A stretch of 64,000 nucleotides of DNA, taken from contig JASJFT010000083.1 in the NCBI GenBank assembly GCA_030770425.1, positions 62,001 through 126,000 on the forward strand. The letters run 5' to 3'. Within the stretch, counting starts at the first letter, position 1; every line of letters begins with the position of its first letter. The position numbers and the translations under genes are program-made. Below the pieces are notes generated by a model. The model searched no databases, was not told the DNA's origin, and saw nothing but the letters and a program-made list of their open reading frames with translations. This document shows, in pieces, positions 3,028-50,001 of the stretch. The DNA comes from Darksidea phi (lineage: Eukaryota; Ascomycota; Dothideomycetes; Pleosporales; Lentitheciaceae).

Positions 3028-3788
3028 GATATGTCCGGGTTACAGAACTTTGCTAGTAGATTAGATGTATCATCTGCTGAGTCACGTCAGCACCCGTTTC
3101 GCAGGTATCATTACTTGCAGGCTCCGACGGATTCAACGAGGTGAGGACAGCTCCGCCACAGCGAGGTTACGTGGGCCGAGACTGTAGGATCTTAGATATG
3201 CCACAGGGCTACTCCGGGCAATTTTATGTGCTGGCGGCAGACAGGTTCCGTGGTGCGTAGTTGAAATGGAATGTCAATGAAGATCCGATGTGGTGGTAGA
3301 AGCGGCAATGGCCGCTCTTCGCTTGTTGCTCGTCCTTCCAAACATTTACCGTAGGAAGTAAAGTATTGCTGGCTAAATACAAACAATAACTCCGAACAAG
3401 ATAATAAGTGAGGCCAAAGTATTGATGTGTTGATAGTAGACGGTGTCCTTGTGGATTCGCAACGAGGGTGCTTCCCTAGGCACCATGGAGCAAAATTAGT
3501 TATGGTGGGCAAAGTTCTAGTTACGCGCAGCTTCCTCCCTACCGCCGACCAAGGACCTGATTACCAGTTGTCGCGTCTAACCTCGATGATACGTTTTTCT
3601 ATCGACCCACGGCTAACTACTATGATGGAGAACGGGCAACTCCCCGGCGGGAGTCGACCAGCCGACAACACAGCCTCCGTTATGCTCAAACGAACTCCAG
3701 CTGGGCTGTGCGATCGCCAGTGATCCATTAGCTCCAAGGATAACTTTACTTTTTCCTTCTCGTTACCGCGAGAGGTTCGAGAGCATTT

Positions 3789-3848
3789 GGTTTGGATTTG
3801 CATAGTGGGAGTCTCTTTTGTAAGGTCCGCACGAAACACAGTAGAGGT
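3789..3848 (-). repeat. dispersed 55-bp repeat, copy A
   Basis: Read on the minus strand, it matches 49661-49718 at about 90 percent and 34688-34742 more loosely. Differences from the copy at 34.7 kb fall mostly at third codon positions in one frame (A-D-L-T-x-E-x-P-T-M-x-I-Q), as if the unit derives from coding sequence. Confidence 0.6.
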
Positions 3849-6008
3849 GCTATACCCACACCTTATACACGATAATAGAGCTGTAGAGCTGTACACAGTA
3901 ATGCCGACGAGGTAATGTTTCGAACATCGAACATTGAAGCGACGAGCAATGACCGAGTGGACAATATAAGCTCCAGTGGGAAGCTAAGAAACGGCGGAAG
4001 AACACGAATGAATTCGGGAGGAAGAGCTGATTTGAGTCGGTAATGTGCGTTGGGCCCCACCTCGTATTTTTATCCCATGCATCTTCTTGTGGTAGAACTA
4101 GGTGATGGGGACTCGGGACTGGTAAAGCCGGGTTTAGCTTTAGGCGTTGTCCACGCTCTTTTTCCGTGATTGTGTACACAGTATTAGGGTTACGTGTTCA
4201 GTAGATTCGGTAATGATTATAGTTAGTGGTGCAAAATTCACTCGGGTCCAAAATGTCCTCCTGGTTGCAGATATATTGTTCGTATATTGACGGAAGTACT
4301 TGAGCTTCGAAGCGGGCTGCAGAGTAATTACACTAGATCCGCATTTAGACAGCCAAACCCCATGGGAGAATGATCTGTCAGAACCACTCAGGATGCGTGG
4401 TGTTTTTAGCAAGCGAGCTATTCCCGAGCTTACCTTGGCCTCCCTCGGGTGATGGACGTGGGGGGATAAGGTAGTAGGATGACATGAGCCTGCGACCCTA
4501 CCGGTTGACCACGAACAGGCGGTGTGAGCTTGATGCTGACGGGGTTGATATATAACGGAATGACTAGGGCCTGTTCGTGAGAGATATTGAAGAAGCGATA
4601 AGGCGTGGATGTGTAATCACATATGTGGAGCCGGAAGGCATGACGTCGGAGCGGGCCGCGGGGTAGTCGGAAATGCGCCATTTTGCATTCACGCGTTGTC
4701 GTCCGATAGGATCTGGAGTGGTTATTTCCGGCCGCAGGAGCATCCATTGCAAATTCCCATGGGCGATGTCCAGACATGGCTCGCAGGGCTGACTAGACGC
4801 TTTCGCGCAAAATAGCAGTCTCGCCATGTCGACATCAAATTCAGCCTTGTGCAAAGTGCATGGCTGTTCGCATGACAAGGCGGTCCCAAACACTTATTTC
4901 GTACGCCCGACAAGCCTCGCTGACGTAAGACGGACGCAAGAACGGGATTTGCATCCACGTGGAAGGATCCTCCCGCCCGACCGCTCAGCGTTCAGACTCC
5001 CGTAAACTGCATGTGTGCCGTGGTGCGTTCACCGGTCCGGGAATCAACTTGCAGACGTATTTGCTGAGGTAAGAGCGAGGTGCGTGAGCGTAATCCTTTG
5101 AACGCGGTCAGATGTCGACTGGAGTCATCGGCGCACATGAAATGTCATGTTACACGTGATAGGATGGGCATTTCTCAGGGGGCGGTGAGGCGCGGCATGG
5201 CTCAAGGCCTACTGCGCTGTCTTCTGGAAGCTTGGTGTGAGTCAGCGCAGCGCCAGCTACGAAAAGAGAGATTTAAGCGAGCTGAGAACTCGACGCGGCA
5301 TGTGTATGCGACAGGTAGGGCAAGAAAATCGATAAAAGTTCGTCACGGATGTCTATTCCTGGATCGTGTGGAACTCTATCGCGACGATGGATAATTGGTG
5401 TGTCATGGTGCGTGTTCTGGCGTAGTGGAAGCTTCGGATTGCGCATTGGCGTATCGATAACAGCCATCAAATGTTGGCTCGCAGACAAGCCAGTGGCGTT
5501 GTTGCGTCGCCGTTGCATTCGATGAGACAAGCGAAGGAGGCGCATTTCTGGAAACAAGATCGTACAGTAGCGTCCTGCAGAGCTGTGCGGCGTGTGCTTC
5601 ACCTCTTGGCTGTGAAACGCCCTTTTCGTCGACTCGGATAGAGTTTCTCAGCTCCCAAACCGGAGAGGCGGCCGTCTGGTTGTTTGAGGGTGGCACGGTG
5701 GGCATCTGAAGTGACCGTCGCCACAAGCGGTCTTTCCGGTGCCCGCAAACGAGAACGGGTGTTCATCGCGCGCATGGGATTTGCTAGGGGAATCCGGGAT
5801 GACACAGAGGAAGGGATGTGGCTGCGAGGTGCGGCAATGCGCCTTGGCAAACATCAAGTTGGGGCACGCCTGTTTACCGGGAATGGGCAGAATGACGACG
5901 TCGTTTTTCCGGTTGCGGTGAGGGCGTCTAGCGTGGTGCGCGATGTGTGCGGCCCGGATTGGTCGTTCTGGAAGATGACCACAGGTTTGTTGATGTTGCA
6001 TTGATCGA

Positions 6009-39684: not shown

Positions 39685-41219
39685 GGCGTGTGGGTTGTTT
39701 TCGATACAAGAAGGCGATTCAGTAGAGTAGTTTTATAGTAGGGTGACGGGAGTCTGCAGGTAATGGCGTAGGTGGACTTTGTCCTTAAATGAGGTGAAAG
39801 AGAAGCAGTGTGCTTGCGGATAGGCTTGGTTTGGAGGTTCTTTCACAGGCGGGGTGGAAAATGTGCCAGGTGATAGGTTAAATGCTGTTTTGCAGAAGTT
39901 CGAACCTCCCATTATTTTGTAAAAAAATTGACTACATTAAGACACAGATATGGGCTATCCCTTTCTGTTTTCAAGTAACAACCTTGCCAAACAACGTTAG
40001 TATATTGGTGGAGCATTTTCACGAAAGAACTCGGATACCTAGCAACCATATACCCCGTCACATCTTATAGGGATTCAAGAATCTTGTCTTCTAGCGTGCA
40101 GCGTTTTGGGTACCCTGCATTAATCTACCGGCCTCAGCTTATAATATAATCGTGTCTTCTGCCTACTTCTAGGTTTCTCGCTTGCGATGTACTTTCTGGT
40201 GTGGATTAATCGGTCTGATTGAACTAGAGAAGAAAGTAAAAGACATATAGTAACATCCCGCTCGCAAACCTACCTTTCGCAACATTTCCGTTTCCTAATT
40301 ACGCTATCCCCACAGCACAGGGCGCCCGCACCCACCTCATTTTTACGTTGCCCAGCGCTGTTATCCATCGGTATCCAACTAGACAAGAAGCAAGACCTCG
40401 AAGAAGAGCAAATTAACAGCACAGTGCAACTAGACTAAGCAAGTGTACTGCAAAACATGAGCCCATTGGATATGGCTGAGTTAGAGCTACCAAATAAGGA
40501 GCAGACTCCCTAAACGAGGTAAATGGGTAACAAGAAACAGAAGACTTTCTGGAAGCGGGGAACACACATAGAGAACTTAACTCTAGGGTAAGCAAATAGC
40601 GCTGTTGCAAGTCATATAAAGACGATATGACTAGTGTGCAATACCAAATACTGATACCACTATGAGAGAGCATCACTGACCCAGCTTAGAGAATCGGGCG
40701 AGATGAAACACCGAAATAAGGGGGCAAACTAAATGAGATAAAGTTAGTGGATGAGCTGATGCAAGAGCTTGAAGAAAAGCAGAAGGTTGAGAAGAATATA
40801 GACCGTGGATGGAAGCAACATACTAAGAAAGACAAGGTCGAAGGGGACCAACGGCTGGAAAATGACAATGGGCTTGAAAAGAAAACAAGAAATTGAGGAA
40901 AAGCCTAAGACTGAGGCAAAGGCGGAGCGTAGAAGGGCAGTTAAGGAGCAGAAAGCTAATGTCAGAATAGAGACCGAGCTCGCGAAGAAGGCTGAGGGTG
41001 AAGGGGCTAAGATTAAGAAGGAAGCTAAGCTCGCAAAGAAAGCCGAGACTGATGAAAAGATTAAGATTAGGAGGAAGCTGCACTTTACACGAAGCCTCGC
41101 TTTGACAGAGCGCCCGAGACCGAGAAAAAGAAAAGGCCCGAGGAGAGACGAGAGCCCGAGAAGGTGCAGAAATGAGTTATCAAACCAAAACTAGGAAGCT
41201 GAAGGCAGGCAAAAAGCAG
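39685..41219 (+). other. intergenic region left of the TIR element, with a Lys/Glu/Ala-rich ORF
   Basis: About 1.5 kb. At 40805-41194 a plus-strand frame (129 codons) is dominated by K, E, A and R, with repeats such as AKKAEGEGAKIKKEAKLAKK. Fungal Fot1/pogo transposases often have a K/E/A-rich tail of this kind, so a transposase 3' remnant is possible, but no DDE or CENP-B part was seen upstream. No intact gene is supported. Confidence 0.35.
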
Positions 41220-41221
41220 TA

Positions 41222-41263
41222 ACATCCCTCCCTGGGTTACCGGACACCCCCTATGACCGGACA
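41222..41263 (+). repeat. left terminal inverted repeat
   Basis: Begins ACATCCCTCCCTGGGTTACC immediately after TA. It pairs with 44909-44950 in reverse complement, with six mismatches in 42. It contains two ACCGGACA sub-repeats, possible transposase-binding sites. Confidence 0.7.
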
Positions 41264-41640
41264 AACTTTTAGTACTTTGACTTTTAGTAACTGGAAAACT
41301 TATGCGCGCAACGAATATTGTTATAATTCTATAAAATTAGTTTCTTATAGCTAATACTAGATATCTATAATCTACCCTTTCTTAAAAATTACGTTTATAT
41401 AGTCACCTCTAAGCCTAATTTATACAGCGTATTCTTTTGTAACGTAATAGACTTTACTTCCTACAACGCCAACCTCAAGTCTTTATCGCTCTAAAATCTT
41501 GTAGAATAGTATTATCTTAGTCTTAAAACCTTTTTCTAAGGCTTAGAAGTTATCACTAGCCTTGTGCGCGCTATCGCAAGCAAATTTATCTAGCCGATTA
41601 GTACTTTCTAAGTTGGCGCTATGATATTTCTAGTTAGTGC
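41264..41640 (+). other. AT-rich, RIP-like stretch inside the element
   Basis: It is rich in TA and poor in CA/TG compared with flanking DNA (for example taatactagatatctataat). Frequent stops occur in all frames. This composition is what RIP leaves in repeated DNA of ascomycetes. No underlying protein could be read. Confidence 0.5.
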
Positions 41641-41929
41641 CAAAAGTTTTCCATACATTATGTAAGCAAAATATCTTACAAAGCTCGTTCATAAGGTCAA
41701 CAGGGGATTGGTTGTTGCTGATGTCAGCAACAAGCGGTTATATCTCGGCATTTTTGACTCGCGAGAGCAGGCTTCAGCCGCGTTGCAACCAGCCTTCGAT
41801 AGAAACTGCATCACTTAGCAATCCGTCTGCATTGATGCATATATAGTCAGCATTATAGGCATCGTTTGCCAGTCCGAAAAGTGAATCATCGCGTCTAACC
41901 AGCACCAATCTCCCTTTTGACGATACCCG

Positions 41930-44347
41930 ATGGCTACATACTGGTCAAACAGTCTTTTCAAACGCAGATCTCGAAATGTGCAAACTCACATACCCTACTG
42001 CTACGAATCGCTAGATCTGAATGCAAGCAATCAACTTCCGCAAATACGTCTGATAGATGTGCCACCTCTTGGTCCTAAAGATCCCCTCGCAGTTTCCATT
42101 CGACGAGTCAACTTGCGAGAGGGAGGTTATGATGCTATATCCTACTGGTGGGGCGACCCTGAACCAGTGAAACATATTGTCTGTAATGGTCAGCCAATTT
42201 CCATCTCAGAAAACGTCTATGCAATTCTCATGCGGCTACAAGAGGAGGCACAGGCGTCGCGAGTGATCAGAACGGTTTGGATAGATGCTCTATGCATAAA
42301 TCAACTCGATGACACGGAGCGAAGCAACCAGGTCAGATGGATGCATAAAATCTATTCGAAGGCCGATAGAGTGTTGATCTGGCTGGGCGCAAAGAAACGT
42401 TTTGAGCAGGACCTTCCAACAATGGCGATGGCGATTCGGACCAGAGGGCTTCTCAGTTACAACGGCATGAGCCCAGATACTATTGCGGAGCGGATGAAGG
42501 TCTATGCAGACATACAATCAAGGATTGTCAAGACGCCGCATTTGCTTGGACAAACTTTAGAGGACATCCATAATGATGAATCTAAGGTGTTTTCCGACTT
42601 GTGGTGTTGGGTTACAGGCTCAATTTTTATGGAAAAAGAGCAGATTGCGGGCGACATCGACAAAGCCTACAGAACTTTATGGTCATTGCTGGAAAGGCCG
42701 TGGTTCCGCCGATTATGGGTTGTGCAGGAGGTGGCGGTCGCAAAAAGCGTCTACTTGATGTGCGGGAGGTCGACACTGACATGGGAGGATTTTACTGAAG
42801 TGATATCAGAGCCACTAGATATGAGCGCAACCACAATCTGGAGACCTTGGAAATTAGAACTTGCAGCATCCCTTGCAGAGACGCGAACAATGCTGCTCGA
42901 AAAGAGTGGCAGGATAAGAGCGATCGAGGATACGATTTCACTCACGACGCAATTTTCTAGCATGGCTTCACTCTCTAGCGGCACGGGTAGCTTTCTATCT
43001 CCGAAGAATTTGATCATAAATCACGACTCAAGCCAGGACGACAAACCAAGTTCTGCAATCATTAGAAACCCCTCATTGGATAACGAGACACCATCGTTGA
43101 ACGCACTTCATCTTCTCCTGAGGCATATGCACCGCGAGTGTTCAGATCCTCGTGATAAACTCTTTGCTCTGTGTGGTTTATCAAAGGATTTTCAAGAGCT
43201 AGGTATCGCTCCAAATTACTTGCTTGGATGCGAGGAATTATACCACAAGTTTGCTCTCAAGTATATTGTGCATAACGCCAACCTGGATATGTTGAGTGCA
43301 CCTTGCATACACGCCCCGACAATCTCTGGGGCTCATAGCAGCCCCAGCTGGGTCCCGAATTGGCAGCTCCCCACCCCATGTATTCCATTAATCGCTTTAT
43401 GCAATCCTGCTAGAGCGGAACAGGCTGGGGAGACAACCGATGCCATCACTTCCCTTCATCGACCGCATTTTGCTGCATGCCCAATTCGAAAGACGACAGT
43501 AATCACGAGTCAGGATAGAAAACGCCTGAGACTGAAATGTGTTCTTGTAGACACGGTCAATGAATGCGGTATGAGTTTCGAACATCCACAACAAACCGAG
43601 GACTTCACGCCTTCATCCAAGCAGATTGCAATGCGAGTTGACTACCTGATGAATGTTTTGGCGGACTGGGAGAGACTATCCGGTGTACAAGGTGATGCAA
43701 TCCACAACACCGGCCAGTCAGCACTCTATGTCTTTGCGCTCACCATTGTCGCTGGACATATACGAGATAACGAGGTGGTAGAAGCGTATCAAGCGTGGCA
43801 AGAGTACTTGTCTTCGTTCCGCTTCATACACAAGTACCTCCCATCTTCTTTTCTCCGGTACTATGTTTTCAGATTTATATTGGTTTGTGTCTGTCTCACA
43901 GAAAGAACCGGCCGTGTTTCCACCCCCGAGAGGAAGCACATCCTTACAGCTATCCAATCGCTACTACTGCTCTTTACCTTTTGCATTCTACTATGGATAT
44001 ATCAGCGCTCATATGAGGATAAACTCTCTCCATATGGTTGGTTGTTTATTTTCATTATTCTTCTAGCAATGTCCTTCATAACTCCTGGGCGACACCTACT
44101 CTACCGAGATAAGCTTGTTTATGCGATGCGTAGGCGACTCGTCCGGACAAATAGAGGCTACCTTGCTCTCTTTCCTAGCACGTGTCAGCCTGGAGACCAG
44201 ATCGGGATATTCGAGGGTGGAAAGGTGCCGTTGCTAATACGAAAAGAGGGATCTGCTTGGGTGCTGGTTGGAGACGGCTATGTATACGGTATGATGGAAG
44301 GAGAGCTGTGGGACGAAAGCAAATGTGAGAATATCTGGTTAGAATGA
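41930..44347 (+). CDS. HET-domain (heterokaryon incompatibility) protein with C-terminal membrane helices
   Basis: One intact exon of 805 codons, start ccgATGGCTACATAC. The HET domain spans about residues 66-260: GYDAISYWWGDPEPVKHIVC, VYAILMRLQEE, TVWIDALCINQLDDTERSNQ, RWMHKIYSKADRVLIWLG, then RPWFRRLWVVQEVAVAKSVY and HRECSDPRDKLFALCGLSKD. All three classic HET blocks are present. Near residues 640-730 are about three hydrophobic segments (YYVFRFILVCVCL; LLLLFTFCILLWIY; WLFIFIILLAMSFI), unusual for this family. The C-terminal part (GDQIGIFEGGKVPLLIRKEG, WVLVGDGYVYGMMEGE) is the usual conserved tail of large HET proteins. HET proteins trigger cell death when unlike fungal cells fuse. The reading frame is undamaged despite sitting between transposon-like ends. 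Confidence 0.9.
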   Translation: MATYWSNSLFKRRSRNVQTHIPYCYESLDLNASNQLPQIRLIDVPPLGPKDPLAVSIRRVNLREGGYDAISYWWGDPEPVKHIVCNGQPISISENVYAILMRLQEEAQASRVIRTVWIDALCINQLDDTERSNQVRWMHKIYSKADRVLIWLGAKKRFEQDLPTMAMAIRTRGLLSYNGMSPDTIAERMKVYADIQSRIVKTPHLLGQTLEDIHNDESKVFSDLWCWVTGSIFMEKEQIAGDIDKAYRTLWSLLERPWFRRLWVVQEVAVAKSVYLMCGRSTLTWEDFTEVISEPLDMSATTIWRPWKLELAASLAETRTMLLEKSGRIRAIEDTISLTTQFSSMASLSSGTGSFLSPKNLIINHDSSQDDKPSSAIIRNPSLDNETPSLNALHLLLRHMHRECSDPRDKLFALCGLSKDFQELGIAPNYLLGCEELYHKFALKYIVHNANLDMLSAPCIHAPTISGAHSSPSWVPNWQLPTPCIPLIALCNPARAEQAGETTDAITSLHRPHFAACPIRKTTVITSQDRKRLRLKCVLVDTVNECGMSFEHPQQTEDFTPSSKQIAMRVDYLMNVLADWERLSGVQGDAIHNTGQSALYVFALTIVAGHIRDNEVVEAYQAWQEYLSSFRFIHKYLPSSFLRYYVFRFILVCVCLTERTGRVSTPERKHILTAIQSLLLLFTFCILLWIYQRSYEDKLSPYGWLFIFIILLAMSFITPGRHLLYRDKLVYAMRRRLVRTNRGYLALFPSTCQPGDQIGIFEGGKVPLLIRKEGSAWVLVGDGYVYGMMEGELWDESKCENIWLE

Positions 44348-44908
44348 GACAGATTATGATATAGTAGAGTGCAAAAGAGCCTTTGCCGCATGCTACGCCT
44401 TGCCAAGCTATTGTTAAGATACTGACAAGATTCTCATCAACATGTAGTGTACGTATATTTCGATATGTCACGACAAGTTGAAAGAGTAATACATTACATA
44501 CCATCGAAGAGTCAGCACAGTCGTGTCTGTGCGGCTTACCAACATCGTGAGCGCCGCGAGTAGGTACCTGCTTGTGGTGGCGCATTGCGTTGGAACGGCT
44601 CACTCACGCACGCTTGGTCGGATGCATAAGAGGTGGCGCAGGAGGATAGAAGAGAAGGATCAATATCTTATAAAGGCCTTATGAGACAGTTAGCATATTA
44701 TTCTATTGTATGCGGGCTCTGCAAGTCTTTCGCTTCAACCAGCGGAGTGCACGGAATCACGTAATAAACAGCAAGATCCTAAGGAAAATTGTAACAAAGC
44801 AGGCAAAAGCATTAGTGATTGGCAAGAGATTAATGGCACACATGTGTAGTATCAACATGAACCTGTGTTGCGTTGTTGTGGTGGTTTTCCTCCGAAGTAC
44901 TTGTGGCG
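44348..44908 (+). other. right arm of the TIR element, no gene
   Basis: About 560 nt between the HET stop and the right terminal repeat. It is moderately AT-rich; no transposase-like frame was recognised. Confidence 0.4.
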
Positions 44909-44950
44909 TGTCCGAGCACAGGGGGTGTCCGGTGACGCAGGAAGGGATGT
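44909..44950 (-). repeat. right terminal inverted repeat
   Basis: The reverse complement begins ACATCCCTTCCTGCGTCACC and matches the left repeat at 36 of 42 positions. It is followed by TA at 44951-44952. Confidence 0.7.
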
Positions 44951-45254
44951 TAACAGCTATACATGTCTAAAGGCAGCTGCACGGAGAGAGGCTGATAATC
45001 GGTGTTTTCATTCGAGTTGGTCTAATGTCTAGTTGGAGACGAGGGTCACATCGGCGATGATGAAGCACACACTCGGAAGCGCATATTCCTCATCTCATAC
45101 AAAGAAACATAGTTAGGGCAGTCAACTAAAGTATTTTCCTTAATTGCACAGTCGGAATAACACAAAGATAAATCTTCGCATGTACCAAAATGTCATATGA
45201 ACATCTATGAGAAATGCGGCAACATATTACTTATGCATCTTACCCATCTATTCC

Positions 45255-49060: not shown

Positions 49061-50001
49061 GCTTGCTGTTAATAGCTGCACTCAGAGACACGCGTGGAGT
49101 CGGGACCAATGTTTTGCGGGCGGGTTCGCGCAGTCGGCGTGTGCTCTATAACAATAACTTCCCAGGAGGAGGACGCGATATGCCCCTCGCAATTGGCGCA
49201 ACAGAGCGGAACAGGATCGAGTTGTCGTGGGTTTGACTGTTTAGAACATGCATGGTTCGCGACTGCGCGTCGAGCTGTGAGGTTGGTGCGACCCCGGGCG
49301 GGCCACGTTCCTGATTGGTCAAGCGTCCTCGTCTCCCAACCATCCCAACCCCGCTCCCCCACCGTCTTCAATCACTGCAAATCTGCCGCCGTCCCTTCTC
49401 CATCTTGCTTGTATTTGCGCAGAGCCTCAACACGCCGGGCTTCTGTCGCGGTGGGACCACTCTGTGGTCCTGAACACGTTCAAGTCACCGTCCGGTGCCT
49501 TAGGGGTTGGAACGTTAGTACCCCATGTATTATTAGGATGGTCATCCTCAATAAAGCACCGGCGAAGAGCGCAGAACCAGATACTGCTTAAAGCCGATCT
49601 CTTCATCCGTCATTCCTTCTGGACTACTTCTGTTTTTCCTGCCATGCATCAGTACAAACTCCTACTGTGTTTCGTGCGGGACCTTATAAAGAGACTCCCA
49701 CTATGCAAATCCAAAAACAAAAACAAAACAAAAACATGTAATCCACACTTCCCAGAACCTACCCTTTTAGGCAATCTGGATTATGTGCGACCACGGGGAG
49801 CGCCCCTTCTTTGCTCCGATCCGTGCAGGTACTCCGGAAGTTTATTTTGCTCTTTTCCTCTTCTCTCTTCATTTCTCTCCGTGCACCCGTCCTACAGTTA
49901 TTCATCCTAATTAAAGCTTCTAAGTCCAAGCCACCACTACTATTCTTCTGTGCTTCAGGTGCTTCCCTTTCTTAGTATCTGTCGCGCATCACTAAACCAC
50001 C
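49061..50001 (+). other. divergent intergenic region with a repeat copy
   Basis: About 940 nt between the Whi5-like gene and the GH5 gene on opposite strands. It contains copy C of the 55-bp repeat, a short AAAACA tract after it (49720-49735), and a CT-rich stretch at about 49850-49900 that fits the GH5 promoter. Confidence 0.5.
49661..49718 (+). repeat. dispersed 55-bp repeat, copy C
   Basis: Nearly identical to copy A (3789-3848, reversed): ctactgtgtttcgtgcgg then cttataaagagactccc and actatgcaaatccaaa. One extra G shifts the frame that is open in copies A and B. Confidence 0.65.

Follow-up and report, generated by a model that had tools for sequence, protein, structure and literature searches.

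An intact gene with a HET domain is enclosed by paired terminal inverted repeats (TIRs) at positions 41220-44952 of a 64,000-nucleotide stretch of Darksidea phi DNA (contig JASJFT010000083.1, positions 62,001 to 126,000 of the forward strand; this whole stretch is referred to as the window, and its first letter is position 1). It is likely, with a probability of roughly 0.7, that this unit is a non-autonomous, TA-targeting DNA transposon of the pogo/Fot-like type, with the HET gene in place of its interior, and that HET and NLR genes have been acquired recurrently within its family. Because no transposase was found in it, the unit can be at most a non-autonomous member. The evidence suggests, and does not prove, that HET/NLR genes travel as transposon cargo. 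The assembly holding the window comprises 51.35 Mb in 477 contigs; the window contig is C460, and the other contigs are likewise labelled with C-numbers. The features of the unit are:

41220..41277, plus strand: left TIR, opening with the target TA (41220-41221), with two ACCGGACA motifs inside; the same start is present at C137:31451 and C40:113514
41220..41697, plus strand: family terminal region (3′-type end) with mutations like those of repeat-induced point mutation (RIP), 478 bp, 86 % identical to C137:31451-31927
41930..44347, plus strand: intact HET-domain gene, a single open reading frame (ORF) of 805 codons (805 aa), the main ORF inside among those of at least 100 aa
42128..42730, plus strand: HET domain, residues 67-267 (PF06985, E 7.1e-27)
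44895..44952, minus strand: right TIR, closing with the target TA (44951-44952)

Both TIR arms start with TA followed by ACATCCCT and, counted from the TA inwards, agree at 10/10, 36/42, and 46/58 positions. The paired repeats claimed by a first-pass annotation, made from the sequence alone, are thus confirmed, with 36 of 42 bases matching and a TA at both ends. Random stretches served as a control: among 221 of them, each 3.7 kb long and taken from the same window, comparison of the outermost 1.5 kb on either side gave no inverted 42-mer with more than 31 matches, and thus none with 36. The TA dinucleotide is palindromic and also lies within the end sequence of the family itself. That annotation had also described the intact 805-codon HET gene as the only gene inside and had seen no transposase frame, and both descriptions hold. 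The HET domain scores 95 bits against a curated cut-off of 22.5, an antisense ORF of 142 aa (44175-44603) overlaps the 3′ end of the HET gene, and a tblastn search of the window with parts of a related transposase gave no match. The best 120 of 652 database relatives of the HET protein are 23-46 % identical to it, those above 34 % cover at most 18 % of the query, and the named sources among these 120 include Daldinia, Trichoderma, and Fusarium. Neither a PDB sequence search with the HET protein nor an NCBIfam scan gave anything informative.

The left end belongs to a dispersed family. The copy at C137:31451 starts at the same TA and remains 86 % identical through 478 bp, therefore the left end of the unit is a true element end, and the boundary of the family at the TA is sharp. 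The copy at C40:113514 matches at 87 % across 45 bp, and 13 more, weaker copies elsewhere in the genome all fall within positions 1-374 of the left end. The left end counts as 3′-type, being homologous to the corresponding ends of C24 (381 bp, 64 % identical) and C425. The search of the genome recovered no further DNA copy of the part from about 41700 up to the right TIR. Two further pieces of the window, at 3785-3877 and 49652-49715, match the inner 3′ region of C425 (79 % over 110 and 92 % over 64) and are a separate small dispersed repeat.

Related ends are found genome-wide and tend to face each other. A 27-base end pattern with up to three mismatches has 26 sites on each strand, against 0 and 0 for the reversed control. 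With an 18-base pattern and up to two mismatches, the complete list contains 86 sites; at three mismatches the totals are scarcely above control. These 86 sites form nine convergent pairs within 12 kb, where 0.43 are expected, and three divergent pairs. The convergent pairs are:

C460: the window unit described above
C24, 4.1 kb: transposase fragment and HET-ankyrin gene
C425, 5.9 kb: HET gene, its start hydrophobic as judged by eye
C46, 8.0 kb: pieces of a transposase (HTH_Tnp_Tc5, DDE_1); HET-NACHT and WD40 ORFs (NLR)
C135:96197-102567 (L044), 6.4 kb: DUF7580 gene and a TPR gene broken by an N run
C40, 11.2 kb: HET gene and P450 gene
C150, 1.7 kb: weak transposase remnant
C223, 259 bp
C423: gene read as GIY-YIG-like by eye only

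The two ends of a pair also belong together by sequence. When left and right TIRs are matched for seven pairs, the observed sum is the highest among 5040 arrangements, and with all nine pairs only three of 362880 arrangements are as high, the observed one included. The C24 and C425 pairs have similar 5′ ends (89 % identical over 338 bp) and similar 3′ ends (82 % over 316 bp), yet hold different HET genes; C24 resembles C46 at both ends and in the transposase, and C24, C135, and C46 have both ends in common more weakly. Each of C24, C425, C46, and C135 has one 5′-type and one 3′-type end. The right end of C40 is of the 5′ type (z 4.6 against C24) and its left end is nearer the 3′ type (z 6.3, against 4.5 for 5′); the ends of C40 and of the window look, from their sequences, like members of one subfamily. 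The C423 pair was dropped as support, as its ends are dissimilar and a 5′-type end lies inside it. Only matches to positions 15-560 of the L032 query were taken as 3′ ends; its positions 440-1200 are a separate dispersed repeat. That repeat (L032:5351-6111) adjoins the 3′ end family and is distinct from it (C46:122077, C102, C425:129552, and others).

HET genes are present inside four of the eight pairs other than the window: C24, C425, C46, and, less surely, C40. The number expected by chance is 0.17 for 152 HET genes (Poisson P 3e-5) or 0.39 for 346 (P 7e-4), the latter figure avoiding the problem that the HET list is incomplete. That list has 150 rows and 152 matches, from scoring 150 of the 346 candidates, and does not include HET genes that were observed directly in C425, C46, C463, and C440. 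It is possible that the DUF7580 and TPR genes of C135 are NLR-like cargo. Where blastp produced an alignment, HET proteins encoded within or next to the ends have identities of 21-37 %, the exception being the HET part of C463, which is 64 % identical to that of C46 over 223 aa; the C463 locus (L028:1342-6953) carries HET and NACHT-ankyrin ORFs. These low identities argue for HET genes gained in several acquisitions, rather than for one HET lineage amplified by the transposon.

The family assignment comes from related copies, in which a transposase with a Tc5/CENP-B-type helix-turn-helix (HTH) and DDE_1 is encoded, in C46 in broken form and in C24 as a fragment. End sequences are common to these transposase-bearing elements and the window, where they comprise the left end and, by TIR only, the right. 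The C46 transposase has 1501 relatives; those of the best 120 with a named source come from Pyrenophora, Alternaria, Bipolaris, Curvularia, Exserohilum, and Pseudogymnoascus; a scan of viral contigs with a transposase relative gave nothing informative. The link to pogo/mariner elements drawn in the first-pass annotation is therefore borne out for the left-end family and reaches the right end through the TIR only; of the full, transposase-supplying element that it suggested looking for, the broken C46 and fragmentary C24 copies are the remnants found.

A number of observations weigh against the transposon reading. The weakest point of the case for the window is its right end, which has no subterminal family homology beyond the 58 bp TIR. 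The left end carries RIP-type mutations, which weaken the reading: compared with C137 it differs by 68 substitutions and one indel, and 48 of these 69 differences are C in C137 to T in the window, or G to A. In 200-base windows both RIP indices are shifted at 41220-41619 only, TpA/ApT alone being near or above 1 also in the left flank (40820-41219) and within the gene (43820-44219). There is no second copy of the window HET gene in the genome. No intact transposase of the window's family was found among the copies read in this genome, that of C46 being interrupted by a stop and a frame change and the HTH match of C24 falling slightly below the Pfam cut-off; further open DDE_1 frames lie at C112:166701 and C64:70514. 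Only four of nine left ends have their own right end as best partner (C24, C150, C223, and C40, tied). Three pairs show no HET gene, C150 and C223 being short and C423 containing another gene, and the C40 pair, kept as a doubtful case, is 11 kb long, begins with GA, and contains a 10-base N run and the P450 gene. The overall interpretation of the first-pass annotation, a transposon that has captured a HET gene, retains the transposase-less TIR unit, the left-end family, and the other HET/NLR pairs in its favour; it has to be tempered for the right end known by its TIR only, for the RIP-type left end, and for an idea that is not new, given HET/NLR cargo in other transposons (see below).

The genome has a strongly expanded HET repertoire, with at least 152 matches in 51 Mb, and genes this common also count against the reading. 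Enclosure would add nothing if HET/NLR genes and these transposons gathered in the same fast-evolving compartments, which is considered unlikely. Proximity of this kind has been reported in P. lycopersici, in which 42 HET genes lie near repeats according to the available text of PMC6034849. The gene content around single ends was compared at 14 loci found solely by DNA similarity to the window left end, the window and C40 being excluded; all 53 ORFs of at least 200 aa from 16 sequences, including C40 and a second C137 stretch, were scanned. A Pfam-verified HET, NACHT or NB-ARC gene is present on the inner side in 5/14 loci (C463, HET and NACHT-ankyrin; C462, HET; C440, HET; C436, PNP and NB-ARC-TPR; C15, NACHT-ankyrin) and on the outer side in 1/14 (HET in L027). 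At the doubtful C40 pair, too, NB-ARC-TPR ORFs (L026:7627-9899) are found immediately beyond the right end. The inner excess is not significant by length (about 88 kb vs about 60 kb, P 0.22). At the five inner-side loci the sequence read contains no recognisable second end, therefore they support association and not enclosure. A HET-like gene with stops in C215 (by eye) and C425:231827, with TPR only, were not counted among the five. The three HET genes in 88 kb of inner side compare with 0.26 or 0.59 expected (P 0.002 or 0.02), and the HET list alone, applied to 58 ends with the window included, gives five distinct HET genes within 5 kb inside and one outside.

Two candidates from such surroundings were rejected as support, to the detriment of the reading: C246, another pogo type beside a HET gene in which no family TIR was found, and C469, a pogo of another branch with the HET gene outside its TIRs. 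The C469 element (L048:1278-3072) is of the pogo type; its TIRs are long, and its 554-codon DDE_1 frame is open and gives the best DDE_1 match; a 911-codon HET ORF starts just outside it. What speaks for enclosure, and against shared compartments, is the relocation of the eight pairs on their own contigs, in which the mean number with HET genes was 0.32 against the four observed, a value reached in 1/20000 relocations; this used 14 listed HET genes, and those of C425 and C46 were included manually, a choice in favour of the observed value. When the listed HET genes alone are used, two are observed against a mean of 0.26, and two were reached in 474/20000 relocations; this result speaks against shared compartments, but is also counted against the transposon reading.

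Two separate insertions, or solo ends, could instead flank a resident HET gene in a region rich in HET genes and transposons. Subterminal family sequence on the left end only would fit this, as would the many end sites that are unpaired (most of the 86), the abundance of HET genes, and the slightly higher score of the window left end when matched to the C40 right end (33, against 31 for its own partner), itself another mark against a single unit. This explanation is nonetheless rather improbable: ACATCCCT and ACCGGACA occur together on both arms and elsewhere on just 2/52 ends (C137 and the right end of C40), the ends are convergent where few convergent pairs are expected by chance, and a 121-base query spanning the right end has no further match in the genome. 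A composite transposon, in which two family copies would move the gene jointly by their outer ends as in bacteria, is very improbable, for although GTACTT, a motif of several 3′-type ends, is present at the same offset in both arms, which would allow a 3′-end origin for each, homology of the right end to the family stops at its TIR and C24, C425, C46, and C135 each combine the two end types.

For the preferred reading, a single pogo/Fot-like unit, a route of movement can be proposed. A pogo-type transposase recognises the TIRs of an element and carries the element as a whole from one TA site to another. A transposase of this type from another element would bind the TIRs of the window unit and excise it, and the excised unit would be pasted into a TA with the HET gene carried along. 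The broad family would have acquired several cargoes: HET-ankyrin, another HET, HET-NACHT with WD40, and DUF7580 with TPR. The arrangement of C24, in which the N-terminal part of the transposase is followed by a short tail and then the HET gene, would be consistent with a gene that entered when host DNA was used to repair an internal deletion. That the unit moves as a whole, that it is mobilised in trans, that aberrant transposition or repair brought in the genes, and that allorecognition is affected at all are inferences.

More tentatively, and on balance doubtfully, one pogo/Fot-like lineage may have become specialised as a carrier of fungal genes for recognition and cell death, namely HET and HET-NACHT and possibly also NB-ARC-TPR and DUF7580 genes. 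Incompatibility loci would thereby spread inside a genome and perhaps from one genome to another, and the cargo may help the transposon to persist. HET/NLR genes vary greatly among fungal strains, and their repeated enclosure in a TIR transposon of kilobase scale would be a concrete and testable route by which they spread.

Ordinary Fot-type elements are about 2 kb long and carry a transposase only. Like the Fot1/pogo-like elements of fungi (Tc1/mariner superfamily, pogo family), the elements described here have TA ends, TIRs, and, in related copies, the Tc5/CENP-B-type HTH with DDE_1; unlike ordinary Fot-type elements, the HET/NLR-bearing pairs span 3.7-8 kb (11 kb with C40). The layout of the pogo transposase matches that in the available text of PMC7325037. 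Other fungal systems resemble them in part. In Pyrenophora tritici-repentis, the accessible portion of PMC3538342 describes transduplicating elements, hAT as well as Tc1/Mariner, whose TIRs enclose an additional host-like ORF, among them a hAT with a histone H3-like ORF and a Tc1/Mariner family with two coding regions; those elements, so far as described there, have one cargo in many copies, whereas the cargoes here are differing HET/NLR genes. The mimp and mFot5 miniature inverted-repeat transposable elements (MITEs), non-autonomous with Tc1/pogo-type ends, lie near fast-evolving effector genes of Fusarium (PMC3599309, in the part available). These are short and adjoin genes instead of enclosing them, although inverted repeats do flank the SIX3/SIX5 cluster.

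The first-pass annotation knew of no described family of this kind. This stands for pogo/Fot-type TIR elements, within which no description of HET/NLR genes was found in a literature represented largely by titles and the openings of abstracts; it does not stand for fungal transposons in general, as Starships and ToxhAT are known to have HET or NLR cargo. On the available text of their sources, these two are the closest known systems. Starships are fungal mobile DNA with HET and NACHT cargo (PMC9594970, available text), are far larger, and have a DUF3435 tyrosine recombinase as captain, in contrast to the DDE_1 transposase, few-kilobase unit, and TA-flanked TIRs found here. ToxhAT is a TIR-bounded fungal DNA transposon with host genes, among them one patatin-TPR gene of the NLR family; it is hAT-like and 14 kb long with 74 bp TIRs, and the available text mentions no HET gene (PMC6737239). 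Since both carry HET/NLR cargo in other transposon classes, the general idea is not new: HET/NLR cargo on fungal transposons is already known, and it is only the vehicle, a pogo/Fot-like element, that is new.

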